A stretch of 64,000 bases of DNA. Source: Nitrososphaerales archaeon. Lineage in GTDB: Archaea > Thermoproteota > Nitrososphaeria > Nitrososphaerales > Gagatemarchaeaceae. The notes under the pieces are model-generated. The model was not told where the DNA came from. It searched no databases and saw nothing but the letters and a program-made list of their open reading frames with translations. The translations under genes and the position numbers were made by a program. The stretch covers positions 62,001 to 126,000 of the forward strand of contig JAJTZB010000004.1 of assembly GCA_032906765.1 (NCBI GenBank), written 5' to 3'. This document shows positions 1 to 25,904 of this stretch, in pieces (positions within the stretch are counted from its first letter, which is position 1; each line of letters opens with the position of its first letter).

Positions 1-266
1 ATTCTGTACGGCCTCCTTGCCTTCTCTCCCTTCGCCTCGCTCTGCATCTCCTCGACGTAGCCCGTCTCCTCGAGCCATGTGAGTGTCGGATAGATTGCAG
101 AAGGTCCTGGCCGCCACATCCCCTTCGTTCGCTGGAATATCTCCTCCATCATCTCAAAGCCGTGCATAGGCCTCTCGGAGAGTAGCCGAAGGATGTAGGG
201 CTTGAGCATGCCCTGGGGCACGACGTTTACCCTAAAGGGACCGCACCTGCACCATCCTCCCGGCAT
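1..266 (-). CDS. PadR-family transcriptional regulator (3' end outside window)
   Basis: The reading frame starts at ATG 266 and runs off the left edge. After a short Cys-containing N-terminus (MPGGWCRCGPFRV) comes a PadR winged helix with the typical run LKPYILRLLSERPMHGFEMM, followed by GPSAIYPTLTWLEE. PadR proteins are small ligand-responsive DNA-binding repressors. The gene lies 6 bp downstream of a small DUF5320-like gene, so the two probably form one transcript. A perfect palindrome upstream of that pair (476-495) is a likely autoregulatory operator. The start is supported by GAGAGG just upstream. The family call is secure; the signal it senses is unknown. Confidence 0.85.
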   Translation of the reverse strand, partial: MPGGWCRCGPFRVNVVPQGMLKPYILRLLSERPMHGFEMMEEIFQRTKGMWRPGPSAIYPTLTWLEETGYVEEMQSEAKGEKARRPYR

Positions 267-272
267 CCCCTC

Positions 273-449
273 TCACTCCTTCTTCTCTTTGAGGGACTGG
301 ATCCTCTTCTCGAGGGCTGTTATTTCAGATTCTAGGCTCGCCTTGTAGTCCTCCAGCTCCTCCACGAATTCGTCCCTACTTCTGGGCCAAAAATAACCCG
401 GCCCAGAGCAGCAACAGCCGCACTGGCTGCCCCATCCGTATCTTTGCAT
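273..449 (-). CDS. small Cys-rich, coiled-coil protein (DUF5320-like)
   Basis: This 58-residue ORF starts at ATG 449 behind an AGGAGATGA Shine-Dalgarno-like stretch. The N-terminal half is Gly/Cys rich (QCGCCCSGPGYFWP). The C-terminal half is a charged amphipathic helix (EELEDYKASLESEITALEKRI). That layout, a Gly/Cys or Gly/Met head followed by a short coiled coil, resembles DUF5320 proteins, which often accompany regulators and metal- or redox-related genes in archaea. It sits immediately upstream of the PadR gene on the same strand. No function is known; metal binding by the CxCCC cluster is an inference. Confidence 0.6.
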   Translation of the reverse strand: MQRYGWGSQCGCCCSGPGYFWPRSRDEFVEELEDYKASLESEITALEKRIQSLKEKKE

Positions 450-475
450 ATCTCTTCATCTCCTCAGGTCGCGTC

Positions 476-495
476 TTATATCAGGGCTGATATAA
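476..495. promoter_or_regulatory. Palindromic operator overlapping the TATA region of the PadR pair
   Basis: TTATATCAG-GG-CTGATATAA is a perfect 9-bp inverted repeat with a 2-bp centre, lying 27 bp upstream of the ATG at 449. It contains TATA-like sequence, so a bound repressor would block TBP. PadR proteins commonly bind such AT-rich palindromes and repress themselves. Confidence 0.7.
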
Positions 496-531
496 ATGCT
501 GTTATGCAGTCTAGAGGAGGCAGGATTCCAG

Positions 532-1251
532 TTAGCTCACCAGCACCTTTCCGTACATCCCGGCTTGAGCGTGTCCGGAGTACGTGCACAGGTACCAAAG
601 GCTCCCTTGTTCGCCAAGGGTAACTGTGTACGAATATCCATACACCAGCCCTTGACCATTATTTGCTGGAGGTAGGAAGGGCGCCATCGCTATCCACGGC
701 CTCTGCTGCTGCCCGTACATCATTCCCTGCATGACCATGAACGGGTACGGAGGACTCAGGGAGGCCATCGCGAAGTTGTGGTACATGTCGTTGTCTAGAT
801 TAACGAAGGTGACTTGCAACGTGGCCCCGCGTGGGACCACAAGCGTGGGGTTGACCAGGCCGTAAATCACAAAGACGTTGTCGGTAGCATAGCTAGGCGG
901 TGCGTTTGTAGTAAGGTTCGCGGCGCCCTTGAGGTCGGTCGCAAGCACGACGAGCTTGATGTCTTTGGAGCTGAAGACTATGGTGTCGTTGGCCGGGATT
1001 ACATTCGCGTATCCCGGAATGCTCCTCATCAACTGGATGACTTGAGTTTCAGGGATTGTCTGGCCCTGGGTCGCCATCATGCTCATCATCCCTCCGAAGA
1101 ACTGGCCGCCCTCGGCACTGTTCACGCCTGCAGTGCTCCCAGAATATCCGCTCACAAGGATAGGAGCCGACAGAGCCACCGCGAATGCTATTCCGACACT
1201 TATCGCGATTATCACCTTGGACGAATCCTTCATGAATTCTTTCCCTCTCAT
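532..1251 (-). CDS. Sulfocyanin-like type-1 copper (cupredoxin) protein, membrane anchored
   Basis: The 239-residue protein has one N-terminal hydrophobic segment (about residues 12-35, VIIAISVGIAFAVALSAPIL) and a C-terminal cupredoxin domain outside the membrane. Type-1 copper ligands are visible: a His in DMYHNFAM (about residue 157), then Cys, His and Met in LCTYSGHAQAGMYG near the end, the Cys-x4-His-x4-Met spacing of blue copper proteins such as sulfocyanin. Such proteins carry electrons to terminal oxidases in acidophilic and other archaea. Its ATG overlaps the stop of the upstream membrane-protein gene as ATGA (1248-1251), so the pair is translationally coupled. An internal Met (residue 7) is an alternative start. 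Confidence 0.85.
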   Translation of the reverse strand: MRGKEFMKDSSKVIIAISVGIAFAVALSAPILVSGYSGSTAGVNSAEGGQFFGGMMSMMATQGQTIPETQVIQLMRSIPGYANVIPANDTIVFSSKDIKLVVLATDLKGAANLTTNAPPSYATDNVFVIYGLVNPTLVVPRGATLQVTFVNLDNDMYHNFAMASLSPPYPFMVMQGMMYGQQQRPWIAMAPFLPPANNGQGLVYGYSYTVTLGEQGSLWYLCTYSGHAQAGMYGKVLVS

Positions 1252-1664
1252 CCTGCCTGGGGCCGCCAGCTCAGGCCAAGAACGCTTCCGACAAGCATCA
1301 GTAGAGAGCCTATCATGAAGCCGAACATTGTGGGGAACGCGATTATCGAAGCGACCAAGACCAGCGTAGATCCCGTCCGGACTTTGCTCAGACTCGCGCT
1401 ATTCATCCACAGAACGCCCAGCACTCCAAGGGCTATCTCTGCAGCTGCGACGACTACGAACAGAGGGAACCAATAGGTATAGGACCCGAACATCCATGGT
1501 CCTCCAAACATCATCCAAGGCCCCATCATTCCAGGCCCGAAGAAGCCGTAGGACGGCCAATAGGCCGACGCATACGCAACCATCAGACCCCCCAAGGCCT
1601 GGAAGACCAGGCCCAAAAGAGAGAGGGTAAAGGCAGTCGTTGGTTTGTCTTCCGCAATCGCCAT
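1248..1664 (-). CDS. Methionine-rich four-helix membrane protein next to the cupredoxin
   Basis: This 138-residue protein has about four hydrophobic helices. The loop after the first helix is rich in Met, Gly and Trp (FGPGMMGPWMMFGGPWMFG). No family is recognised with confidence. The gene is coupled by ATGA overlap to the sulfocyanin-like gene and follows an ArsR regulator on the same strand with a 4-bp gap. A role in copper handling or in assembling the cupredoxin is plausible from the Met-rich loop and the context, but is not shown. Confidence 0.75.
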   Translation of the reverse strand: MAIAEDKPTTAFTLSLLGLVFQALGGLMVAYASAYWPSYGFFGPGMMGPWMMFGGPWMFGSYTYWFPLFVVVAAAEIALGVLGVLWMNSASLSKVRTGSTLVLVASIIAFPTMFGFMIGSLLMLVGSVLGLSWRPQAG

Positions 1665-1668
1665 GATA

Positions 1669-2004
1669 TTATCTCGACCCGCGCCTCTCAGCTAAAACGG
1701 TCAGCCTCTGCGACTCCTTGAGCTGCTCAAGCAGGACTTCTCTCATCAGGCGGCAGGCCTGGATGATCTTGGGATTCGACACCCCGTAGAAGACGCTTGT
1801 GCCCTCCTTCCGAGTCGTCACGACCCGCCTCTGCCTGAGCACCCCAAGGTGCTGAGAGATATTGGCCTGTCTCAGTCCCAGCTCCTGCGAGATTTGGCCG
1901 ACGGTCTTCTCTCCGTCACGCAGCGAGTCGAGAATCTCTATCCTGACCGGGCTTCCCAGCGTCTTGCATATCTCCGCATGCATCTCGAAAATCCTGTCCT
2001 GCAT
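1669..2004 (-). CDS. ArsR/SmtB-family transcriptional regulator
   Basis: This 111-residue winged-helix protein contains MHAEICKTLGSPVRIEILDSL, then the recognition helix region QISQELGLRQANISQHLGVLRQRRVV and the wing RKEGTSVFYGVSN. The only Cys residues are C13 and one near position 88, so it lacks the CxC sensor of classical ArsR; its ligand is unknown. It heads the operon with the Met-rich membrane protein and the cupredoxin, which it probably controls. An AT-rich region at about 2021-2044 separates it from the divergent DsrE-like gene. Confidence 0.88.
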   Translation of the reverse strand: MQDRIFEMHAEICKTLGSPVRIEILDSLRDGEKTVGQISQELGLRQANISQHLGVLRQRRVVTTRKEGTSVFYGVSNPKIIQACRLMREVLLEQLKESQRLTVLAERRGSR

Positions 2005-2020
2005 CGCAACAGCTGCCAGC

Positions 2021-2044
2021 TATATGCATACATATGAATATATC
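2021..2044. promoter_or_regulatory. AT-rich bidirectional promoter region between ArsR and DsrE-like genes
   Basis: A dense AT block contains the palindromes TATGCATA and CATATG followed by GAATATATC. It lies about 17-40 bp upstream of the ArsR start (minus strand) and about 30 bp upstream of the DsrE-like ATG at 2072 (plus strand). It suits TATA boxes in both directions and an ArsR-type operator. Confidence 0.5.
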
Positions 2045-2071
2045 CTGGGATGCGGAATCAAGCGAACGAAA

Positions 2072-2437
2072 ATGAAAATCGGGCTTGTCGTTTCAACAAA
2101 CGAGCCGGAAATAGTCTGGAACGCCTTCAGATACGGGGTCAAGGCAATTTAGAACAAACATTCTGTCAAGGTCTTCTTGCTTGGGCGAGGGGTTGAGAGT
2201 GAGGAAGTCAATGATGTCAAGTTCGACGTGAAGAAGATGATGAGTGAGTATGTGGACAAGGGAGGTGAGATTCTCACATGCGGTACCTGCCTCAAAATCA
2301 GGAAGAAGGGTAGCACCGACCTCTGCCCCATCTCCACGATGCAGGACTTGGTGAACCTGACGGTAGATTCGGATAGGATGCTCAGTTTCGGACAAGTTCG
2401 AATCCCTTCATCCGAGGAATTTTCGAACTCTCATTAG
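2072..2437 (+). pseudogene. DsrE-family sulfur-relay-like gene interrupted by one in-frame TAG (2150-2152)
   Basis: Reading through one TAG gives a continuous DsrE-like protein of about 120 residues. It begins MKIGLVVSTNEPEIVWNAFRYGVKAI, then TAG, then NKHSVKVFLLGRGVESEEV, FDVKKMMSEYVDKGGEILTCGTCLKIRKK and DLCPISTMQDL. The Cys residues of the TCGTC stretch and of DLCP are typical of this family. Both halves are in the same frame, so a single base change could account for it. The extreme C-terminus (after about MLSFGQ) looks unrelated to the family. It is either a recent nonsense pseudogene, a readthrough gene or a sequence error. The gene is divergent from ArsR. Confidence 0.7.
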
Positions 2438-2496
2438 CCGTGGCTTGAGAAGCTCGTTTTCGGCTTCAACGGGGAAAAGGAGCCTATTTCAAGCGT

Positions 2497-2521
2497 GTCC
2501 CGGCCGGGATTTGAACCCCAA
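2497..2521 (-). other. tRNA T-arm/acceptor-like sequence (tRNA remnant or attachment-site candidate)
   Basis: Read on the minus strand this is GGTTCAAATCC flanked by GC-rich arms and ending in CCGGGACA, as at a tRNA 3' end. The T-stem has one mismatch. I could not find a matching 5' acceptor strand or anticodon arm, so this is not a complete tRNA as far as I can see. Tyrosine integrases of archaeal elements often leave such 3' tRNA fragments. Confidence 0.3.
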
Positions 2522-2593
2522 TTCCTGACGCTGGTAAACGGTTCTTTACAGGATGGTTGTGTCAATCGGAAATAGAGCTTTGAGGTTGAAGGC

Positions 2594-2641
2594 TGGGCCG
2601 GAAGGGACCCATGTTGTGCACTTCCCGATACTTCCGGCCCA
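2594..2641. repeat. 11-bp perfect inverted repeat (hairpin candidate)
   Basis: TGGGCCGGAAG at 2594-2604 is the exact reverse complement of CTTCCGGCCCA at 2631-2641, with a 26-nt loop. The position in a gene-free stretch suggests an RNA stem, a terminator-like structure or a recombination site. No poly-T tract follows. Confidence 0.55.
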
Positions 2642-3043
2642 AACCCTTGGCATGGACAAGGGTCTCAGTCGATGCAGGTTCGAACCCTTGGCACACCTCG
2701 GAGTCACTCGATTAGGCAACCCTGATCAATACCGTATGGTTGGTATTTATTCGCCACCGTGGTGGACTATGGCAGGAGCTTGTAGCTCAGAGAAGTCGCA
2801 AGATGGGACGCGAGCCCGACGGGTACCGAACCCGGGTGAGCGCGGGCCCGGCAGTCCTTTAGCCAGTAGAAATGTACGGGTTCAACCTTTCGTAAATTTG
2901 CCCGTCATTTTTGTTGGGCTGGCGTACAGCGGCTCTCCTGACAGCGAAACCAGCAGCTGGAGCCAGCACCTTCTCTTTCTCTTTCCATGATGCATCTTCT
3001 TGTCCACAACCTTCAGTTCGATTTCCAGCCATCTGTCGTCATC

Positions 3044-3865
3044 TCAGCTTGGGACGGTCGTGTATTCTATCACGATGGTATGACCAACCCCGTACGGGTA
3101 TTGCTGACCATTCCAGTAAGGATTACCCAACCCAGTCGGATAGCACGGAGGACCCGTTGTCGCTGCGCTGCAGTAATCCAGAGAATTCAGGACCAAAGAG
3201 CCATAATCGGTGGAAGGCTTTCCGTCAACTAGTAAAACGACTTTGTGGGTCGAGTCGGCGCTGAAGCCGAGGATGTCGGTCGAGTTGAACACGATTGGGT
3301 GGCTGGCTCCGTTGATGCTTATGGTCCCGTAGGTTGCCTTCCAGGCAGAGAAGAAGCCTCCGAGCGTGTACTGTCCGCTTGCATCCGGCGATTCGACGTG
3401 TATTATCCCGGATGCGTCATGCGTATGGATAGGCTCCTCGCACCCGTTGACAAGGCCCACATTCGCAGGAATCGTTACGTTCTGCCCATCTATTACTATC
3501 CTGATCCATGGATGGAGGTGGATGGCCAGGCCATTTGTCTCAACATTGCATGGATATGGGAAGGATCCATACGGGGCACTGGGGTGACTTTGAAAGTTGT
3601 AAAGGCCATATGCCCCGAGCCCACTTCCAACCACAAGCACTAGCGCCACCCCGAGGATAATCGCTCGGCGTCTCGTCTTCCTTGACTCGAGATTGCGCTT
3701 CAGACCGCCACGACTCCCCGGTGGCTGACCTTCCTTCTCCTGTCCCTTCTCTTTTGAAGAGGATAGCTGTGGAACTGGTTGGTTCGGATGCTTGGCCGTG
3801 TAATGCTGAATTAGGCCGGACTCGGATTTGAGGTCCTTTCCACAGAGTTCGCACTCTACCAGAAT
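3044..3865 (-). CDS. C2H2 zinc finger - transmembrane - extracellular HTHD-motif protein; start codon unclear
   Basis: Directly after the P1B-ATPase stop, the frame encodes a C2H2 finger (CELCGKDLKSESGLIQHYTAKH), a Lys/Glu/Gln/Pro-rich linker and a transmembrane helix (about residues 68-88). The roughly 185-residue extracellular domain contains IHTHDASGIIHVESPDASG and four Cys. The HTHD domain resembles a conserved archaeal membrane-anchored family that I know from thaumarchaeal genomes; its function is not established. No ATG, GTG or TTG lies upstream of the finger: the frame opens ATT CTG GTA right after the TAG at 3866-3868. Initiation at ATT/CTG, or coupling to the ATPase, would be needed; otherwise a GTG at 3649 gives a product without the finger. 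Confidence 0.65.
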   Translation of the reverse strand: MLVECELCGKDLKSESGLIQHYTAKHPNQPVPQLSSSKEKGQEKEGQPPGSRGGLKRNLESRKTRRRAIILGVALVLVVGSGLGAYGLYNFQSHPSAPYGSFPYPCNVETNGLAIHLHPWIRIVIDGQNVTIPANVGLVNGCEEPIHTHDASGIIHVESPDASGQYTLGGFFSAWKATYGTISINGASHPIVFNSTDILGFSADSTHKVVLLVDGKPSTDYGSLVLNSLDYCSAATTGPPCYPTGLGNPYWNGQQYPYGVGHTIVIEYTTVPS

Positions 3866-6061
3866 CTATCTGCCCCTCCAACGAGACATACGGTACCGCG
3901 AATCCCTAAGCAGGCGCGAGGAATTAACCGAGACTAGCACATCCGGCACTGATTGAGCAGCGGCTGCCAGAACAGGAGTAAAAATGCCTACCGAAGCAAG
4001 ACCCATGTCTATGGCGTCCCACACAATGCCTATGACGACATTTTGCTTTATCGTGCCATACGTTCGCCGGCCGATCCTAATGGCCTGCGGAACCATTCGC
4101 CAATCATCGCGCATGAGGGCAACGTGGGCTGCTTCGATTGCAACGTCAGTGCCAGCCTTCCCCATGGCCATGCCCACATCCGCTTGGGCAAGAGCAGGTG
4201 CGTCATTGATTCCGTCACCGATCATGAGAACTCGATGACCTTCCAGTTGTAATTTCTTCACCTCAGCGATCTTGTCTTCCGGTTGCAGATTTGCTCTAAA
4301 TTCCTTAATCTCTAGCCTTCTAGCTACCGCAGAAGCAATCCTTTCGTTATCCCCTGTAAGAAGAATAGTCCTCTTGACTCCGAGTTTCGCAAGCTCCCTG
4401 AAAGAGTCTGGAACTTCTTCTCTGAGTACATCTGCAACGGCAATTAGCGCAATTGGCTCCCGTTCCCTCAGCAAATAGAGAACCGTGCTACCTTCTGTTT
4501 CGAGTCTTTCAGCTTCCCGTACAACATCTTCAGGAATCTGAATACCTCTTTCATACGCGAGTTTGAGGTTACCGATCGAGTAGATTTCTCCCTTCACTAC
4601 ACTTACGACTCCTCTTCCGACGGCTGTTTCAAAATTATCGGGTTCGACGAGGTTTATTCCGCTCTCCATCGCTTTCCGAACAATCGCTGATGCTAGCGGG
4701 TGTTCCGAGTATCTTTCGATAGACGCTGAGAGGCCAAGAATCTCCCTTTCTGTTAGACTCCCTAATGGGATTATGCCGCTAACCTGAGGTAGCCCGCTCG
4801 TTAGTGTCCCCGTCTTGTCCACGACTACCGTGTCGATCTTAGCCAGATTCTCGAGGTAGAGACCGCCCTTAATCAGAAGACCATTCCTTGCTGATGCGCC
4901 CATGCTAGCTACTACGGAGAGGGGCGTAGCTAATCCAACTGCACATGGACACGCTGCTACCAGCACTGCGATTGCGAAAACTACGTTGCGACTTACTAGG
5001 AATGTGAGCGCGGAAAATGCTATTACTGCAGGCAGGTAATATTTAGTGTACCTATCCGCGAACTTTTGCGCTTTTGATTTTGAGGAGCTTGCATCCTCGA
5101 CGAGCTGGACAATCTTTCCAAAGGTCGTATCTTTGCCGACTCTTTCCACCTCCATCTTTATCATTCCTGCCTGGTTGAGTGTTGCAGCGAAAACAAAATC
5201 GCCAACTTGCTTCTCGACAGGAATAGATTCACCGGTGATAGCGGCTTGGTCTACGACGTTATGCCCACTAATTACCCTCCCGTCTACCGGAACCTTTTGG
5301 CCGGGACGGACGATTACAATTTCGCCCACATCGATCTTGTCTATCGGAACAGAAAGTTCTTTTCCTTCTCGTACCACAACAGCTGTCTTCGGAGAGAGTT
5401 TGATGAGCTCCTTTACAGCTTTCCGAGATCGTTCGACCGTGAAATTCTCCATGTAGTGCGCGATTGTCATAAAGAAGACAATGAGGAGGGAAGAGGTGAA
5501 TTGACCTATAGCAGCAGCTCCCAGTATCCCCACGGTCATCATGGTGTCTACGTTGATGGTCCTTTGCCAAAGACCGATAGCCGCTCTCTTGAAAATTGGG
5601 TAGCCCCCGATAGCGATTCCGAGTAAGAGGATCGGAACTGGTATGATCTGGAAGGCAGATTCGATGAAACCGAGCCGCTCTCCAAAGATTTCAACAAGTG
5701 CAATAACTGAGATTGCACTCAGAAACAATAAACGGATATTGTTGCCAAAGCTAGCTCGTGGCTTTACTGCCGCTTCTTCTAGAGCCGAAGTAGTAGGTGT
5801 CGCGTTGTATCCTAAGCGCCGGACGGCGTCAACAAGCTCGCTTGCTTGAATCTTTTTCGGATCGTAGGCAATTCTTGCTTTCTCGGCTTGCGTAAAGAGC
5901 TCGACTGCATGAACGCCCTGTTTCTTTTTGAGAGTCTTTTCCACATTCTGAGAGCATTCCAAGCAGCATAGTCCTTGAACTTGCAAGTCCAAAACTTCAC
6001 TCGGTTGTTGTTGTTCTCCTCCTTGATGTTGCTGCTGGGCGGACAAGCTTGCTATCGTCAC
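3866..6061 (-). CDS. Heavy-metal-translocating P1B-type ATPase
   Basis: This is a full-length exporter of 731 residues. It has an N-terminal heavy-metal-associated domain with GLCCLEC (about 30-36), then transmembrane helices, TGES in the actuator domain, CPC in the metal-binding helix (about 369-371), the phosphorylation site DKTGT (about 415), the HP motif in YSEHPLASA and GDGIND (about 616). CPC with the YN/MxxSS motifs of typical Cu+ pumps not evident (the C-terminal helices read [14 protein letters not shown] and VSVNSSRLL) leaves Cu, Zn, Cd or Co open. It starts with GTG overlapping the upstream ArsR stop (GTGA, 6058-6061), so it is in an ArsR-controlled operon and presumably removes excess metal from the cytoplasm. 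Confidence 0.93.
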
Positions 6062-6480
6062 TCATCCATATTGCGTACCTTCAGAATCTGTCTAGCCCGA
6101 AGTAGCAACTCAGTCATTCCTTCTTCAAGACTGTAATACATCCATCTTCCTTCCTTTCTTGCCCTGATGATGTGAGCCCTCCTGAGCACGTTCATGTGGT
6201 GAGACGTCAGCGATTGTATCTGGTCAATTCCGGCCTGAACCTCGCAGGCACAGAGCTCCCCTTTCCTTGCCAGAAGGGTCACAATCTTCACGCGAACCGG
6301 GTCGCCAAGCGCTCTGAAGAATTGCGAAAGGACCGAAGCTTCGCCTTCCTTGGATGCTTCCGAGACAACCTGACGCAACTCCTCAACCCAAGCCGATGGA
6401 GGCATCCCCTCGCATGACGGCCTTCCCGGCATCGTCTTCTCGATTCTCGCCAGGAGGAGACTTTCGATCTCGTTTACCAT
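6058..6480 (-). CDS. ArsR-family metal-responsive repressor
   Basis: This 140-residue protein has an ArsR winged helix: [60 protein letters not shown]. The ELCACEV stretch gives the Cys-x-Cys metal or metalloid site used by ArsR/CadC-type sensors, with a further Cys near the N-terminus (RPSCEG). It is the first gene of an operon with the P1B-ATPase and the zinc-finger membrane protein. A perfect inverted repeat at 6489-6510 lies just upstream of its start, which fits classical derepression by metal. Confidence 0.92.
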
Positions 6481-6488
6481 TGGTTCAA

Positions 6489-6510
6489 TATATCAAACTA
6501 CATTGATATA
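6489..6510. promoter_or_regulatory. ArsR operator overlapping the TATA box
   Basis: TATATCAA-ACTACA-TTGATATA is a perfect 8-bp inverted repeat with a 6-bp spacer, 8 bp upstream of the ArsR ATG. It includes TATA-like sequence. The half-site TATATCA also appears in the PadR-pair palindrome at 476-495, with a different spacer. Confidence 0.75.
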
Positions 6511-6587
6511 AGGTTGCTTGAAACGGGTTCTGTCAAGTTGACGGGCCATGGCAAAGGTTGTAAAGCGTCGGGCTATGAGGGAAACGA

Positions 6588-6986
6588 TTGAAGACACCGC
6601 CTTCGATAGAACGGAAGGGTAACACAATCACGCGCAAAAATCCAAGAGCGGTGAACGCATTCGACTTGGGGGCAAGGGCCTATTTCTACCAAAGGCTGGA
6701 AGAACTTAGCTTAACCAAATCGAAGGTCTACGCCTATCTTCACACTACCACGTCGCGAAGGTATCCAATGACGCGCGAGATCAAATTGAAGCAGCATAAG
6801 GAACAAGATGGCCGCTGTTCTCTTTGTGGCAGGCCTTTGAAGCTGAAGGAGGCGATACAGGACCATGACCACGCAACAAATCTGGTCAGGGGATTGCTCC
6901 ATGCCGAACGCAATGGTGTCATAGTTCCCTTCGAGTTCAATGATTGGCGCATTGTTGACACCCCTAAACACGGCTCGCAGACTTGA
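6588..6986 (+). CDS. Endonuclease VII-like HNH protein, zinc site apparently incomplete
   Basis: This 132-residue ORF has a basic N-terminal region followed by RCSLCGRPL and IQDHDHATNLVRGLLHAERN. The DHDH...VRGLL core is the signature of recombination endonuclease VII/HNH nucleases from phages and mobile elements. In intact members the core is followed by two further Cys zinc ligands (typically HxxCN); here the position reads HAERN and no later CxxC exists. The C-terminus therefore looks decayed or replaced. It lies next to an insertion sequence. The start is uncertain. Confidence 0.6.
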   Translation: MKTPPSIERKGNTITRKNPRAVNAFDLGARAYFYQRLEELSLTKSKVYAYLHTTTSRRYPMTREIKLKQHKEQDGRCSLCGRPLKLKEAIQDHDHATNLVRGLLHAERNGVIVPFEFNDWRIVDTPKHGSQT

Positions 6987-7241
6987 CAGAACCCTCTCCG
7001 GGCAGCTGGACAAGGTATCAGCGCACCGGATTAAGCACTCGATTGCACATTTATCGCCGTTTTCGGTGTTAGTTTGGCATGGTACTGATTTAGGAATTTT
7101 TGGCACGTGCAATCCGTGGTCACGAGTTCAAGTCCGGTGGGACTCAGTATCGTCTGATGTCAAATCCCGCGTCAAATGGCATTGGCATCTACGCTAGTGG
7201 AAAGCTGACCAATCGAGGTGTCACAAACTACGTTCGTGTAT

Positions 7242-19743: not shown

Positions 19744-19778
19744 CCCATTGAACGCGAATCATCTCAAGAGCGGGGCAT

Positions 19779-19851
19779 CCGTATAGACCGTGAAAATGGT
19801 GCAAAAAACACACTAGGAGGGAGAGTATTATTCAGCGGCAACTCTCTACGG
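19779..19851 (+). repeat. ~73-nt dispersed repeat, copy 1
   Basis: It begins CCGTATAGACC and ends TCTACGG, with an AAAAAACACACTAGG core. Terminal CCGTA/TACGG are inverted repeats. It shares ends, core and length with the copy at 20021. Confidence 0.65.
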
Positions 19852-19908
19852 CTGACCGTGCTCTTCAGAAGGCCTAATGGACATCGGTGTCAATGGCGCA
19901 GGAAGCGG

Positions 19909-19981: not shown

Positions 19982-20020
19982 CCGTCCCTGTTTAACCAAC
20001 AATCATGCAATCGCAGCAAT

Positions 20021-20093
20021 CCGTATAGACCCAGAAATCGGTCCAAAAAAAACACAATGGGGGAGGCATTAATACAGCCGCAATCATCTACGG
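20021..20093 (+). repeat. ~73-nt dispersed repeat, copy 3
   Basis: It begins CCGTATAGACC (ATCCGTA with one more flank), has the core CAAAAAAAACACAATGG and CAGCCGC, and ends TCTACGG(AT). ATCCGTA at 20019 and TACGGAT ending at 20095 make a 7-bp inverted repeat. A GACC...GGTC mini-hairpin follows the left end. Confidence 0.65.
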
Positions 20094-20109
20094 ATGCCCC
20101 AGTCAGCCT

Positions 20110-20736
20110 CTATCTTACGAACGCATCTTGGTCGATGTTACAGTATTGACAGTGAAGGCAGAACACGCCGACGGGCCCGAGCCTCATTTGGCGGGCTCCT
20201 GGCCCCTGACCCTCACTGGCGACCGACACCAGCCTCTGGGCGTACAAGGAAACCAGACTTTCCATTACGACACCCTGCTTCAGCTCGGCTGGGCATGGAC
20301 CCAGGTGCTTCGACTTCCAGGGTCTGGCCCTCAGAGCGTCGATGGTCAGCGCAGTGCGGTCAATCGTCTCCCCTATGACCACCTCTCTCGATTTGAGATA
20401 TCCGAGGACCATCTCGACCTCGGAGCTGAAGACGTGTGGGACTCGGTTCCGCCTACGTCTGAGTTCCGTCAGCAGTTCGGCCGTAACTAGGGGGCCCGTC
20501 CTCAGGGCGTCGACAACGCTCGTTGCCAGCGCCGAAGGCAAGTTGGGCGGGACAGACGCAAGTCTGTAGCGAGGTAGGATGACGTGATTCAACGAATCGC
20601 ATTCTGTGCAGGTCCAGAAGATCTGGAACCAACTCGAGATACCGGCCGACTCGGTCTTCACGTAGAGCGTCCTGTGGTGCGTCATCGTTCCACAATTCGG
20701 ACAGAGCCTCGTCCTAAGCCCTCGAAGCTTGGTCAC
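20110..20736 (-). CDS. Zinc-ribbon / winged-helix-like hypothetical protein
   Basis: This 208-residue protein has an N-terminal ribbon (RLCPNCGTMTHHRTLYVKT ... FWTCTECDSLNHVILP, about 11-57). A helical segment follows that could be a winged helix (LATSVVDALRTGPLVTAELL, HVFSSEVEMVLGYLKSREVV). A C-terminal Cys/His group (FCLHCQYCN) may add a second metal site. No family is recognised. The layout suggests a DNA-binding regulator. The gene lies between the three 73-nt repeats and the iteron array. Confidence 0.6.
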   Translation of the reverse strand: MTKLRGLRTRLCPNCGTMTHHRTLYVKTESAGISSWFQIFWTCTECDSLNHVILPRYRLASVPPNLPSALATSVVDALRTGPLVTAELLTELRRRRNRVPHVFSSEVEMVLGYLKSREVVIGETIDRTALTIDALRARPWKSKHLGPCPAELKQGVVMESLVSLYAQRLVSVASEGQGPGARQMRLGPVGVFCLHCQYCNIDQDAFVR

Positions 20737-20898
20737 AGAATCCTTAGCTTGCGGATGTTATAACGCACCGAGTGCGCGGCTTCTGATTCGGGGCATCGTC
20801 CCGATGACACTGTCGTTCAGGCATGGCCGAAGCTATCGCTTCTTGGACGGCACGCTCCTACTGGAACGGACCTCTGTTTTTCGGTGGGGGGGTTGGTT

Positions 20899-20914
20899 TG
20901 CTAATGAATTAGCA
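20899..20914. promoter_or_regulatory. Perfect palindrome TGCTAAT-GA-ATTAGCA
   Basis: The 7-bp arms are perfectly complementary around a 2-bp centre. It lies about 20 bp upstream of a TATTTAA box and 71 bp upstream of the first iteron, and is a candidate operator or part of an origin/centromere. Confidence 0.6.
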
Positions 20915-20984
20915 CGCTAGGAGTGGGTGGGAGTATTTAACGCGGGACGGACTTGTAGGCGTTCTAACGGGTTTGGGAGCAAGG

Positions 20985-21100
20985 GGGTGACATCCCAGCC
21001 GCAAAGGGTGACATCGCCTGGAGCCAAGGGTGACATCCACCGACGGAAGGGTGACATGCCGCAGGCCACAGGGTGACATCCAGAACCCAAAGGGTGACAT
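20985..21100 (+). repeat. Iteron array, six direct copies of GGGTGACAT at 21/22-bp spacing
   Basis: Exact GGGTGACAT copies start at 20985, 21006, 21028, 21049, 21071 and 21092. Spacings are 21, 22, 21, 22, 21 bp, i.e. two turns of B-DNA, so all sites face the same side of the helix. Most copies are preceded by A/AA and followed by C. Intervening bases are not conserved. Confidence 0.88.
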
Positions 21101-21105
21101 CTGCG

Positions 21106-21229
21106 ATGTCCACTTTGGCCGCTGAAGAAGTCTTGATATGTCCACATTGAAGAGGGCGACAGCTTCGGCATGTCCACTTTGGTGTTGGATGTCCACCTTG
21201 TCGTGTCCACTTTGGCCGCTGATGTCCAC
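21106..21229 (-). repeat. Iteron array, six related copies in opposite orientation (ATGTCCAC, plus-strand reading)
   Basis: Copies start at 21106, 21138, 21170, 21189, 21203 (GTGTCCAC) and 21222. Spacings are 32, 32, 19, 14 and 19 bp. Read on the minus strand the full site is CCAAAGTGGACATC, against CCAAAGGGTGACATC for the first block, so these are related sites in inverse orientation. A 19-bp exact repeat (TGTCCACTTTGGCCGCTGA) occurs at 21107-21125 and 21204-21222. Confidence 0.85.
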
Positions 21230-21507
21230 CTTGGTCAAGAGTCAAGCGTTGAACCTCGGTTCCAGATTCAAGGGTTGACGCTGAAGCCGCCATGACTATC
21301 ACAACCGTTCACCGGGCGCCGTTTGACTAGGCCTTCTCACGCGAATGTCCAAGTTTGCAAGAAGTTGGTGCCAATCAGTAGAGACCAAGACCAATCGTAT
21401 CAGGGTTGCGAGCGGACGAGGGAATCGTCACTTTCGTTCACCTCTCCCGCCGATATCTTGCTTTCGGGCTAGTTGCGTAAAAGGACGGGGGTTTGCGACG
21501 GAGCATC

Positions 21508-22668
21508 ATGACCGCAGCCGAACTGAAGGCGATACCCCTCAGGCTGGTCGAGCCGCACCCGAAGACCGTTGTGAGATTCAGGTACAGGGTCGAGCCGCTG
21601 GCCGCCCTAATCAAGTCTGCTGCCGACGAGGACACCCCCAACGGACAGCTCGAGCCCGGGCGCGTCGTCCCCCGGGGCGACGGGAAGGAGGGCTACTGGG
21701 TCTACATCGGCGTCAAGCGCTACTGCGCCCTGAAGCTTCTCCATGAACAGACCGGGGAAGAGAGGTTCGCGGTGTTCTACGCGTACGTCGACAAGGGCGA
21801 CAACTCCCTCTTGCGGCTGTTCGTCAGGGCGAAGAGCGAGAACGAGGACGAGAAGGGAGAGAGGGAGGGCTTCTCTATCCTGGAGGAGATTTCAGGCATC
21901 GGGAGGATCAATGACTCGATCCGCCCCGGCGAGCTCAGCGTGGACCTGAGACGCCTCTACGACCTCGCGGGCAGGCTGGGCGAGGGGAGGCTCAGGAAGC
22001 TCTACGAGGTGGAGAAGGCCACCGACTTCAGGTTCAGGCTGGGCCACCTCGAAAAGCTCTGCAAAATCGAGGACGAGAGGGAGTTCTGTCTGGCTTCTGC
22101 TTCGACGGCTGGCTTCCGTTTCCGCGAGGACAAGGTGGAGGACGCTGCGAAGGCGAAGGACTCCGCCTACATCTTTCGGTGGTTCAACGACGTCTTTCCC
22201 GAGTATGAGAAGCCAGCAGGTTCCGTCTCCGCTGTGAAAGTAGATCGCGCCAAGGGGCACGAGGAGAAGCTCGTACCCTATGAGGAGGGAGTCTTCATCG
22301 TGCGGTGTCCTGCGTGTGGGGCAGGGAACCTGATGGAGCTTCACATGGAGGCGGAGGCCACGCGGCTCCCGATCGAACCAGGCGGGGAGGAGTTCACCAC
22401 GACGCCCGAGGCCCTCGTCTGGTTCAGCGCTGGCTGCCACCACTGCGCCAAGGCATTCTACACCTTCGTCGAGCCGCTGGACAAGAAGAGGTACGCGGTC
22501 GGAGGGTCGCTCTCGGTAAAGCTCATGAAGCCGAAGGAGACCGCTGAACTGTTCGACCTAGGGGTGGCCTTCGCCGAGGAGAACGTTTGGCAGAAGATCA
22601 TGGACCAAAAGGTCGTGGGCCCGTTGAGCCTCCCACAGGGAAGGGGGAAGAAGGCGCGGAAGGTGTGA
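21508..22668 (+). CDS. ParB-like protein fused to a C-terminal zinc ribbon
   Basis: From ATG 21508, behind GGAG, the product is 386 residues. The N-terminus follows the ParB/Srx-like plan: IPLRLVEPHPKTVVRFRYRV, LAALIKSAADEDTPNGQLEP, GYWVYIGVKRYCALKLLHEQ (in place of the usual VxGxRRxxA). A helical middle contains ILEEISGIGRINDSI and LRRLYDLAGRLGEGRLRKLY. A C-terminal domain carries FIVRCPACGAGNLMEL and AGCHHCAKAFYTF, two CxxC pairs. ParB proteins bind centromere-like sites to segregate plasmids or chromosomes; some related proteins are regulators or nucleases. It sits right after the iteron array and 7 bp before a winged-helix gene. No ParA gene is in the window. The ParB assignment is by pattern and context. 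Confidence 0.6.
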   Translation: MTAAELKAIPLRLVEPHPKTVVRFRYRVEPLAALIKSAADEDTPNGQLEPGRVVPRGDGKEGYWVYIGVKRYCALKLLHEQTGEERFAVFYAYVDKGDNSLLRLFVRAKSENEDEKGEREGFSILEEISGIGRINDSIRPGELSVDLRRLYDLAGRLGEGRLRKLYEVEKATDFRFRLGHLEKLCKIEDEREFCLASASTAGFRFREDKVEDAAKAKDSAYIFRWFNDVFPEYEKPAGSVSAVKVDRAKGHEEKLVPYEEGVFIVRCPACGAGNLMELHMEAEATRLPIEPGGEEFTTTPEALVWFSAGCHHCAKAFYTFVEPLDKKRYAVGGSLSVKLMKPKETAELFDLGVAFAEENVWQKIMDQKVVGPLSLPQGRGKKARKV

Positions 22669-22675
22669 ATTCGGC

Positions 22676-23062
22676 GTGCCGAAGTCCGTGAGAGAAACGC
22701 TGACCGCGAGGATCGCTGTCGAGATGCTCGTGCAGGGCGTCGACTTCAGCTCGTCCCATGTCAGGGAACTACCTGCGAGCAGGAGCAGCGCGACCAGGAT
22801 CCTCCGGGCGCTAGCCGGCTCTGGCGTGATAATGAACAGCAGTGTCAGGGGCAAGGGCAAGTACCGCTTCACCGAAGAGTTTCTGAGTGCGGTGAGCCAG
22901 GATATTGCGGAAGGGATGCCCCGCGGGACCTTCCTTCACTACCCAGCCCTCAGGGTGTTCGACGTCTGTAGGATTGGGAGTTGGACGGAAGAGGAGCTGG
23001 AAGCTTACGTGGAGAGGCTGAGGAAGCACTGGCGGATAATGAGCACAAGGTGGGGGAAATAG
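22676..23062 (+). CDS. Winged-helix protein in operon with the ParB-like gene
   Basis: This 128-residue protein starts at GTG 22676, 7 bp after the ParB-like stop. A winged helix is visible: TARIAVEMLVQGVDFSSSHV, SRSSATRILRALAGSGVIMN, SVRGKGKYRFTEEF. The C-terminal part (WTEEELEAYVERLRKHWRIM) is helical and could dimerise. By context it may be the DNA-binding adaptor or autoregulator of the partition-like module, comparable in layout with the small AspA protein of the archaeal pNOB8 system. That comparison is an inference, with no sequence match claimed. Confidence 0.6.
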   Translation: MPKSVRETLTARIAVEMLVQGVDFSSSHVRELPASRSSATRILRALAGSGVIMNSSVRGKGKYRFTEEFLSAVSQDIAEGMPRGTFLHYPALRVFDVCRIGSWTEEELEAYVERLRKHWRIMSTRWGK

Positions 23063-23133: not shown

Positions 23134-23442
23134 CTAGGCGATGCCGAGTCGCTTCATGAATTCCTTGGCCAGTCCTGTGAGCTGGTAGAACGAGTAGTCG
23201 CCCTTTCCCGCCACCTTCCTGTAGTGGTTCTCTACGAGCCCTGCCTTCATCAGAGCCTTCAGGTGGTAGGTCAGCGTGCTAGCGTTCAGCGGCCTGGCGA
23301 GCCCCTGCAGTTCTCTGAAGGAGAGCTCTCTCTTCTCTGCCAGTGCCTTGAGCAAGCCCATCCTGCTCGGCTCCCCGAGGACCTCAAGGATGCTCCTGAC
23401 CTCTTGCGGAATCCGTCTCGTGTACTCTGTTATCGCTGACAT
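23134..23442 (-). CDS. ArsR-type winged-helix regulator
   Basis: This 102-residue protein reads SILEVLGEPSRMGLLKALAE, ELSFRELQGLARPLNASTLT, YHLKALMKAGLVENHYRKVA and ends FYQLTGLAKEFMKRLG. It has no Cys, so it is not a metal sensor of the classical type. It is divergent from the gene at 23544. A perfect palindrome (23472-23491) and a TATA-like TAATATA lie just upstream of its ATG, suggesting autoregulation and control of the divergent gene. Confidence 0.82.
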   Translation of the reverse strand: MSAITEYTRRIPQEVRSILEVLGEPSRMGLLKALAEKRELSFRELQGLARPLNASTLTYHLKALMKAGLVENHYRKVAGKGDYSFYQLTGLAKEFMKRLGIA

Positions 23443-23543: not shown

Positions 23544-24134
23544 TTGCCTTTGGACGTGAAGGACGAAGCTGAACACTGGCTGGCGATGATACTTGGGCGG
23601 AAGCCCTCGCTGAAGGTCGGTATCTACGGTTCGTACCATCCAGAATCGGAAGCGCGGCGGCTCAAGCAACTGAGAGACCGCTTGAAGAGAGATGGGTACG
23701 CTCAGACCTACCTCGTCAGAGACCTTCCAGACCTGTCCCAATTCAAGGATGCCTTCGACAAGAGCGTCTTCTCGATTAACAGGTCGAACGTCAACCTCTT
23801 CGTGCTGACGTTCGCCGGGAAGAACCAGGGAGACATCAGGGAGCTCGATTACGTGATCCACAACCCTGAACTCGCCTTCAAGTGCGTCGTCTTCATAGAA
23901 CGGACTGACGACGCGACATGCCTGACCTCCCTGCTCAAGGAAGACCTCAGGGCGGTGGGCATGAGGGTCGCCGAATTCAGGACTGGGGACGATGAGGATC
24001 TCATCAAACTCGTCGAGGGTACGCTCTCGGACTTCCTGTACTACTACGTAAGAAACCGTCCGCGCGATCTTGGCGAGCTTCGAAGACGAGTTAGATTGCA
24101 ATCACGCCATCAGAGGAGAATCAGGCGCCAATGA
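23544..24134 (+). CDS. Rossmann-like hypothetical protein (possibly SLOG/TIR/deoxyribosyltransferase-like)
   Basis: This 196-residue protein starts at TTG 23544 (MPLDVKDEAEHW). An alpha/beta order is visible: LKVGIYGSYHPESEARRLKQ, YAQTYLVRDLPDLSQF, INRSNVNLFVLTFAGKNQGD, RELDYVIHNP, FKCVVFIERTDD and MRVAEFRTGDDEDLIKLVE. A GxYGS loop at strand 1 and the conserved-looking Asp/Glu near ELDYVI recall nucleotide-handling Rossmann-like folds of the SLOG, TIR or deoxyribosyltransferase type. I cannot place it in one. It is divergent from an ArsR regulator in the accessory island, so an element-borne or defence role is possible. Confidence 0.55.
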   Translation: MPLDVKDEAEHWLAMILGRKPSLKVGIYGSYHPESEARRLKQLRDRLKRDGYAQTYLVRDLPDLSQFKDAFDKSVFSINRSNVNLFVLTFAGKNQGDIRELDYVIHNPELAFKCVVFIERTDDATCLTSLLKEDLRAVGMRVAEFRTGDDEDLIKLVEGTLSDFLYYYVRNRPRDLGELRRRVRLQSRHQRRIRRQ

Positions 24135-24217: not shown

Positions 24218-24463
24218 ATGGCCCGAACCCGGCCGTTAAGAGGCGAGGGCCGCCATGTTGCCATGCAAGTCCCGCGCACTAGCGAAGCAGATAGCGAAAC
24301 CATTTCGCTTTCAAGGGTCAAGGACGCGGCCAGGCGTCTGCTACCACCCGGCAGCACCGCCAGGAGCGTCATCCTTGCCGAGAAGGATGTCCTCCCCGCA
24401 TCAGAGGCCCTCGCCAAGTTCGAAGTCTTCGACAGGCTACTCCGCTCTGAGCTGGGGCCTTGA
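24218..24463 (+). CDS. Hypothetical small protein convergent with the integrase
   Basis: This ORF of 81 residues (66 from ATG 24263, MQVPRTSEADSETISLSRVK) has a globular-looking C-terminus: DAARRLLPPGSTARSVILAE, KDVLPASEALAKFEVFDRLL. It overlaps the last 27 bp of the convergent integrase gene. No family is recognised. The pattern of a short Ser/Thr-rich head and a helical tail is compatible with a small element-encoded accessory or antitoxin-like protein, but nothing shows this. Confidence 0.5.
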   Translation: MARTRPLRGEGRHVAMQVPRTSEADSETISLSRVKDAARRLLPPGSTARSVILAEKDVLPASEALAKFEVFDRLLRSELGP

Positions 24464-25815
24464 CCCCGCCAGCCTCATGATCACGCTGCCGTCGGGGAGC
24501 TGCGCGACGTACTCCCAGCCCTCCTCTACCATCGCCCTGACCTCCCCAGCCGGGACGACCTTCTGGCGGCTGAGCGCCTTCCTGTTGAGGGCCTCCACGA
24601 ACTGCTCCGTAGTCAGCCCCGACAGGTCACCCATCTGGCCCAGCTCTTCCTCGGAGTACCTCGTCGCCAGCATCTCCCTCCTGATTGCCCCAAGCACCTC
24701 CCCCCTGCTGAAAGAAGGAGTGGCCGAGAAGTCCAACTTCGCGTACTCCTTCCTCAGCCACTCCACCTTGCTCCTGTCGTAGTAGTTCTCCTGGGCCCCG
24801 GGGAGTATGTGCCCCATCAGGAACTCCTGCGTCTTGGTGTCCAGCCTCCTCCCGTCGCTGTTCTCCTCCCGCAGGACGCTCTCGAAGGCCTTTCGCAGGC
24901 AGTGGGGGTGGACGTCGGCCCATCTTTCTATCCCCGCCCGCAGCGCCGCCTCCTTGACGATCCGCTCCATCGTCGACCTTCCCATCGGCCCGCGATTCTC
25001 CCGTATGGGTCGGTTGTGCTTCCACCCGTTGAAGAGGACGTCCCCGTCCGTCAGCTTCCCAGCCTGCGCCTGGACCTCGGCGAGGTAGACCTTCAGCTCA
25101 TCCGCCGCCTCCTTCGTGATGAACGTGTAGTACGGGACCGCTCCCTTGCAGGCGTCCGGCACCACCTTCTTCATCTCCGGGTAGACGGGGACCTTCAAGG
25201 GGATCGTCCCGCCCTCCAGCTCCTCCCTGACGTCCACGTACCGCAGTCCCCTGAGCGTGCCCTGGCGAAGCCCCGACGCGTAGAGGAAGAGGATCACCGC
25301 CCTGTCCCGCAGGTTGTTCACCCTGCCCGCGTTCGCCATCCTGTAGATCTCCTCCCTCGACGGGACGTAGTCTGACATCTCGATGGCCTTTCTGGCAGGG
25401 GAGAAGAAGCCCCGGATTTGGATGACTCCCTTGTCGCCCCCGTCAAACCCGTTGGACCGCAGGAAGGCGCCCAGCGCCGCCCTCGCCAGGTTCCCCGTCT
25501 CCCCGCTTCTCCTGCCCTTCTCGTCCACGAAGTCCTGCACGCTCTCCCTCAGCTCGTGCCTCTCCATCTCCAGCACCTCGTCGGGGTTCTTCCCCACCTT
25601 TCTGCAGAAGCGGTAGAGCCAGCTCAGGTAGGCCTCCCTGCTCCCTTCGCTCTTGATTCGCCTTGCGAGGTGGTTCAGCAGCTTCTGGACGCTGCGGTAC
25701 TCGCTCTTCCATCCCTCCGCCTTCAGGTATGTCTCGTAGTCCCTGACGCCCCGTGCGAAGAAGCCGTGGGGCGAGCGTCTTACTGGCGTGTGTGGTCAAA
25801 CCTCCCTGATATCAT
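24437..25815 (-). CDS. Tyrosine recombinase/integrase, 5' end frameshifted in a CA repeat
   Basis: The catalytic domain is complete: ASGLRQGTLRGLRYVDVRE (Arg I), HPHCLRKAFESVL (His-x-x-Arg), FLMGHILPGAQENYYDRS (His and the nucleophilic Tyr). A core-binding domain with NHLARRIKSEGSREAYLSWL precedes it. The uninterrupted frame has its first usable start at GTG 25597. A continuous N-terminus beginning MISGRFDHT at ATG 25815 joins PVRRSPHGFFARGV only if two bases are removed from the CACACA run at 25788-25794. So full-length protein (about 458 residues) needs a frameshift, or a shortened protein is made. Extended C-terminal sequence (GEVLGAIRREMLATRYSEEE) is unusual for XerC/D. Integrases of this kind insert plasmids or viruses into chromosomes. 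Confidence 0.8.
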
Positions 25816-25904
25816 GTCAACGGTTCGCGACCATTTAACGCGGGTTTCCGCCCGAGCACTTCATGGAAAAGGAGGACTACGTGCCGACACGCGTCCACTG
25901 GAGG

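Follow-up and report, generated by a model that had tools for sequence, protein, structure and literature searches.

The ParB-family gene and its neighbours

The DNA analysed here, referred to as the window, is a stretch of 64,000 nucleotides that forms part of contig C4 in a Nitrososphaerales genome of 1.77 Mb and 13 contigs, whose nearest named relative among the genomes searched is Candidatus Gagatemarchaeum stordalenia (L001), making a thaumarchaeal host from this family probable. Near the right end of an integrated element derived from an integrative-conjugative element (ICE) it carries a ParB-family gene with a short gene directly behind it. An earlier note, made without database searches, had given the coordinates of the pair, a 7-bp gap, the motif GVKRY and four cysteines, all of which were confirmed in the sequence:

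21508..22668, + strand: ParB-family gene, 386 aa, assigned by family alignment and profile matches; ParB N-terminal domain at about residues 1-130, shortened HTH region at about 130-235, four-Cys ribbon and C-terminal part at about 260-373
22306..22446, + strand: stretch with the four ribbon Cys codons, C267/C270 ... C310/C313, by family alignment
22676..23062, + strand: gene of a probable winged-helix (wH) protein, 128 aa, GTG start, 7 bp after the ParB gene, by model and Foldseek

The ParB/Srx plan proposed for the N-terminal region in the earlier note became visible at the level of the family. Taken alone, the window protein has no significant ParB match in Pfam, NCBIfam, PHROGs or PDB, and PF02195 has no match in the window genome, but the profile of a 14-row family alignment that includes the protein (A1) matches ParB structures of the PDB at E 3e-13 over positions 8-209, spanning the CTPase and HTH regions. 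In addition, TIGR00180 is matched by 7/14 family members (best 2e-14), and PHROGs ParB families are matched in up to 13 of the 14 A1 rows. Through L033, with which it shares 35% identity over 282 aa (pairwise, E 4e-37), the window protein is safely connected to the more canonical members. On this sequence evidence the ParB N-terminal assignment is correct, but it is reached only through relatives, and its weak point is that the profile of the window's own 7-member clade falls short of ParB, with no ParB match and with sulfiredoxin (E 2) as the best match of ParB fold. An AlphaFold model from the window and L001 sequences reached a pLDDT of 36.8 and was discarded as useless.

A single-sequence search found relatives in 10 of 61 genomes, the protein's own genome counted, with up to 8 matching stretches per genome, and a strong member (E below 1e-40) is present in 13/46 family genomes. 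Beyond the family, the best match in a class-wide sample of 300 genomes was found in G087 (E 4e-83), and the viral contigs scanned held no relative of the window protein.

GVKRY occupies residues 68-72 of the window protein, and the earlier note had taken it as a departure from the usual motif; the letters were read correctly, but the family as a whole does not deviate. G68, R71, E111, N112, R119 and Q47 are invariant in all 14 rows and P50 is present in 12, while position 70 is R in 11 rows, K in 2 (the window and one other) and G in 1. Because the invariant motif residues are kept throughout, GVKRY amounts to a one-letter change (K70), a local substitution. Since R71 is invariant and position 70 mostly R, the nucleotide site looks kept across the family. 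CTP binding and clamp closure would be expected of a protein with the ParB-CTPase fold. The Box I loop, the Box II GxxR and the Box III EN..R that mark the ParB-CTPase fold are all found in the family alignment; the box names come from the part of PMC12704722 consulted, and the assignment of residues to boxes is our own.

Outside the N-terminal domain the family departs further from canonical ParB. A gap of about 10 residues in the HTH is seen in 8/14 rows, the window included, and the HTH of the window's clade is judged from the alignment to be shortened; that of L040/L041 looks intact (alignment by eye). The C-terminal dimerisation domain is absent and a Cys ribbon stands in its place, as had been suggested from the window protein and its cysteines 267, 270, 310 and 313. 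The ribbon is kept across the family as CPxC...C, its third Cys column being C in 9/14 rows and N in the other 5, which have a Cys two residues earlier. The ParA-binding motif was found in 0/14 family members.

The winged-helix nature of the 128-aa protein, also proposed in the earlier note, is probable: the model, although of low confidence (pLDDT 50), shows the order helix-helix-helix-wing, and winged-helix proteins, chiefly of MarR/ArsR type, head its Foldseek list, none below E 0.001. Relatives of this gene lie directly downstream of ParB in 8/12 strong loci. Upstream, a Zn-ribbon gene (A2) immediately precedes ParB in 12/12 strong relatives' loci and is also found in G087; it resembles TFIIB weakly (E 0.02 against TFIIB structures, hhalign probability 15%). 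A2 is absent upstream of the window ParB, the only copy without it, and a second ParB copy of the same genome, on contig C1, has both A2 and wH. This usual partner gene, like the repeat array, the promoter block and the integrase/att context described below, had escaped the earlier note.

The absence of ParA near the window ParB holds for the whole of contig C4, the ParA-like genes of the genome (PF01656, PF13614) lying on contigs C2 and C6. Likewise, no ParA-like gene over the cut-off was found near a strong ParB in any of the 10 genomes searched, including the one-contig genome G006. The locus thus has neither the ParA partner nor the ParA-binding motif of a ParABS system. Close to the A2-ParB operon there is also a gene for a conserved RHH-like protein of 118 aa, with 65-87% identity across four elements; no relative of it was found among the window-element genes compared.

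Integrated element and promoter-associated repeat arrays

The surroundings of the ParB gene hold the following genes and sites:

20110..20736, - strand: gene of a 208-aa zinc-ribbon protein behind a left-facing promoter, 51% identity over 203 aa to the G006 ICE stretch
23134..23442, - strand: ArsR/HTH_20-type regulator, 102 aa, with no relative in the ICE regions compared
23544..24134, + strand: 196-aa protein of no clear family, weak DUF7509
24218..24463, + strand: short ORF, conserved (75% over 57 aa to L029) and running towards the integrase gene (convergent)
24437..25597, - strand: tyrosine integrase (PF00589, 46 bits, cut-off 27.1)
25869..25898, + strand: attR, where 3'-terminal sequence of the RNase P RNA gene is repeated

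The other att copy lies at C4:48418-48447 (window -13582), the repeat having an alignment score of 43 against 27 for the best of 300 shuffles, and a third, weaker att-like copy with 6/28 mismatches lies at C4:59401 (window -2599). The RNase P RNA gene itself (RF00373, 188.8 bits) is at C4:48153-48440 and mre11 begins at window 25939; in relatives the two genes are close together, unlike in the window genome. We read this arrangement as integration of a tyrosine-integrase element into the 3' end of the RNase P RNA gene. There may be two such elements in tandem, the right-hand one measuring about 28.5 kb and having the integrase at its end. That one element fills the whole 39 kb from RNase P RNA to Mre11 is doubtful because of the third att-like copy and of a heme-biosynthesis-like gene row to its left. 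This row (C4:51389-59265, window about -10.6 kb to -2.7 kb; by eye), which lies between two att-like copies, is possibly cargo of a second element. The part of PMC6563490 (Krupovic et al. 2019) consulted lists 68 integration sites, namely 39 tRNA genes, 15 intergenic sites and 14 protein genes, and RNase P as a target is not mentioned in the consulted part of PMC8371274. The literature searched showed no case of archaeal integration at an RNase P RNA gene, which is not proof of novelty.

The corresponding regions of relatives carry genes for VirD4/TraG-type and VirB4-like ATPases, TFIIB, PolB and RadA-like proteins. In the window, five clustered genes have relatives in the ICE regions compared: those for the 208-aa protein, ParB and wH, the small ORF and the integrase gene. 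Outside this cluster, a metal-ATPase and a small regulator also match; no VirD4/VirB4-type ATPase is among the window-element genes matched to these regions. By eye, the left part of the element (window 1-7000) contains a heavy-metal-type P-ATPase and ArsR-type regulators. Two 81-nt direct repeats (19777-19857 and 20019-20099, 74% identical) lie near the ends of the 312-aa and 208-aa genes.

Between the 208-aa gene and ParB lie two repeat arrays, twelve sites in all (20985-21235) at a pitch of about 21 bp, upstream of a TATA-like promoter:

20847..20944, - strand: conserved noncoding block, starting with the TATA-like CGCGTTAAAT and facing left
20985..21101: array 1, six GGTGACAT sites at 20986, 21007, 21029, 21050, 21072 and 21093 (pitch 21/22/21/22/21)
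21106..21235: array 2, six TGTCCAC-type sites (ATGTCCACTTTGG and variants), in the sense opposite to array 1
25833..25842, - strand: second CGCGTTAAAT element, 245 nt upstream of the integrase start

Upstream of the window promoter, a 330-bp stretch contains 8 and 6 sites against shuffle means of 0.09 and 0.06, with 0 downstream, and the array flank aligns to the G006 ICE (70% over 192 nt, E 1e-13). The CGCGTTAAAT block occurs at E below 1e-4 in 8/46 family genomes, the window's own included, and several of the others have arrays of their own upstream of it at about equal pitch; upstream of the block in G033 contig 55 and in G067 there was no match to the three array patterns. Across the 46 genomes, there are 78 GTTGCCA pairs at a pitch of about 21 bp, the reversed pattern giving 3; for TGTCACC the figures are 12 and 2. 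Searching for arrays by autocorrelation at 21 bp gave too much noise to be useful.

In the GTTGCCA type, a leading inverted site stands exactly 12 nt before CGTTAAAT in 23 arrays (2 mismatches allowed), which are not all independent since G013 alone supplies 14 of them and six other genomes the remaining 9. Of 48 candidate GTTGCCA sites, 25, mostly inner ones, have no box at 12 nt. The window arrays end about 38 bp before the TATA-like box and are without the inverted leading site of that type. In L160, L163, L167, L168 and G033 the array promoters lie between a TFIIB gene (PF00382 over the cut-off where scanned) and VirD4/TraG-type (T4SS) gene sets, and other array promoters are near integrases. 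This fixed spacing to a TATA-like element, together with the presence of several arrays per genome, favours operators over a centromere or an origin. On L161 (G013 contig C98), an AbiEii-like nucleotidyltransferase gene and its neighbour (3421-4553) are flanked by GTTGCCA arrays on one side and, on the other, by an integrase that shares 73% identity with that of the window.

Downstream of the array promoter, a noncoding stretch of about 500 nt is kept in six ICEs (L075, L076, L077, L078, L080, L081; from the CGCGTTAAAT box to about 530 nt downstream) at a mean column identity of 79%. It has many predicted pairs and ends near the TFIIB gene in the ICEs whose genes were read, and only about its first 90 nt are retained in the window. 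A structured RNA between array promoter and TFIIB was considered and set aside, the stretch being conserved but its covariation term unfavourable (+3.7); Rfam returned nothing for the window region and cis loci except one sub-threshold match. The stretch is possibly an unknown ICE RNA or leader.

Array binding by ParB or wH may be proposed from the sequences, and the distribution of genes and arrays bears on it as follows. In favour, a strong ParB lies on the same contig within 47 kb of the promoter block in 5/8 cases (G000, G006, G016, G033 contig 55, G067), block and strong ParB are on different contigs in G036 and G020, and G031 has no strong ParB. On the other side, among genomes with at least two pattern pairs, 5/10 have a strong ParB, against 8/36 of the others, and arrays also occur in genomes that lack a strong ParB of the window family. 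On contig C1, pattern searches found no array for the second ParB copy. The co-occurrence of array and ParB is a weak link, and some of the mismatch may perhaps stem from incomplete genomes. Also in favour, wH group and array type agree in the few elements that have both: TGTCACC-type arrays accompany the wH group shared by the window, G006 and G020, and GTTGCCA arrays the group of G033, with the caveat that in G020 the wH gene and the array are on different contigs and GTTGCCA arrays are also carried.

Relation to known ParB systems

As far as the consulted parts of the sources show, the closest known system is that of the thaumarchaeal ICEs, which encode a ParB-like protein behind a TFIIB homologue and in which no relaxase was found (PMC6563490). 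The host class, the ICE context and the relatives' upstream Zn-ribbon gene with weak TFIIB likeness, in the very position described for the TFIIB gene, are alike, and no ParA is mentioned for those ICEs. The C-terminal ribbon, the wH partner, the shortened HTH, the lack of an upstream gene in the window copy and the promoter-locked arrays set the present case apart, the consulted passages naming none of them. Since the window lacks the TFIIB-like gene, we file it as a derivative rather than a full member of the TFIIB-ParB module. The excerpt of PMC12704722 used here adds that orphan ParBs are often linked to mobile elements and that ParA seldom accompanies archaeal canonical fusions. Since publications already describe orphan ParBs and a TFIIB-ParB operon (PMC6563490, PMC12704722), the absence of ParA is not itself new; new, as far as the literature was searched, are the pairing of ribbon and wH, the missing partner gene that the window copy has lost, and the promoter-locked arrays.

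In bacterial elements, ParB-type clamps that regulate genes include KorB (RK2), VirB and BisD (ICEclc), according to the portions of PMC12704722, PMC11790492 and PMC10770331 consulted. These share with the window family the ParB fold, location on mobile elements and ParA-free gene regulation (here presumed), and differ in being bacterial, in having a canonical HTH and dimerisation domain, and in working with other promoters and another RNA polymerase. The AspA-ParB-ParA system of pNOB8, as given in the part of PMC5120986 seen, is likewise from an archaeal conjugative element and has a ParB-type N-domain with a non-bacterial C-terminus and a small DNA-binding gene adjoining parB, but its C-terminus is CenpA-like rather than a ribbon, aspA is upstream of parB, and it includes the ParA gene that the window locus lacks. 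With canonical ParB (Spo0J) and Noc, the window family shares the profile match through N-domain and HTH, and differs by the ribbon in place of the dimerisation domain and by the missing ParA motif.

Proposed role and alternatives

The earlier note had left segregation, regulation and a nuclease side by side as ParA-independent roles, and regulation fits best. We favour the reading, to which we give about an even chance, that this ParB is an orphan ParB of the thaumarchaeal ICE lineage acting as a ParA-independent regulator of element promoters. The missing motor partner and the evenly spaced repeats ahead of a promoter suggest that it switches element genes rather than pulling DNA apart. It is ranked first because ParB-type clamps regulate genes in bacterial elements and orphan ParBs are often tied to mobile elements. 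The window copy would have been kept on an integrated ICE derivative that lost the TFIIB-like partner and, as far as the compared genes show, the conjugation genes as well. The protein would be a nucleotide-switched DNA clamp that regulates element promoters in the manner of KorB, VirB or BisD, and not a partition adaptor for ParA. DNA specificity might be supplied by the wH protein or the ribbon in place of the shortened HTH, and the arrays of 21-bp pitch beside CGCGTTAAAT promoters would be the expected loading or operator sites. More broadly, and tentatively, we speculate that archaeal conjugative elements could possess a ParB regulon, in which the clamp with its ribbon, wH and a TFIIB-like factor on arrays 12 nt from TATA would switch the TFIIB, VirD4 and integrase promoters.

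A true partition module without ParA or with a host ATPase might be considered, in which ParB and wH assemble on the arrays as a centromere complex. Centromeres often consist of iteron-like arrays. The pairing of wH and ParB does resemble AspA-ParB-ParA of pNOB8 (PMC5120986, seen in part), and among the Foldseek matches of the wH model the centromere-binding protein of pNOB8 ranks 50th. AspA, however, matches that model no better than dozens of other winged helices, the ParA motif is found in 0/14 family members with no ParA found nearby, and several promoter-locked arrays per genome are unlike one centromere per replicon, which together make partition rather improbable. The regular 21-bp pitch and the two sub-arrays of opposite sense would also suit a replication origin with iterons, with ParB and wH as replication proteins, but the fixed spacing to TATA-like elements and the many arrays per genome speak against it, and no ParB-family protein is known to act as a replication initiator; we regard this as highly implausible.

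It is also unlikely that the arrays are operators of another ICE regulator (RHH, a TFIIB paralogue or a host factor) and that ParB has an unrelated role, for example in transfer-complex loading. Arrays in genomes without a close ParB and the conserved RHH-like gene near the A2-ParB operon would agree with such a binder, but the window element has kept array, ParB and wH with no RHH relative among its compared genes, and wH type and array type agree in the few cases where both are known. Finally, the weak sulfiredoxin match of the window-clade profile (E 2) might hint at a sulfiredoxin/SerK-like ATP enzyme or a nuclease instead of a DNA clamp. Box III (EN...R) is kept in 14/14 rows and the family matches ParB through the HTH region, and Pfam and PADLOC searches found no sign of nuclease or defence families in the window protein, leaving the nuclease and defence readings unsupported and an enzyme very improbable.

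The known roles of ParB clamps are in partition and, for a few bacterial elements, in switching genes. If the regulatory reading holds, the ParB switch would have been carried over to the archaeal (TBP/TFB) transcription machinery via TFIIB-like factors and promoter-locked arrays. With its arrays, promoter block and att site, the locus lends itself to a direct test of this reading, which, if true, would offer a handle on how archaeal conjugation is turned on.
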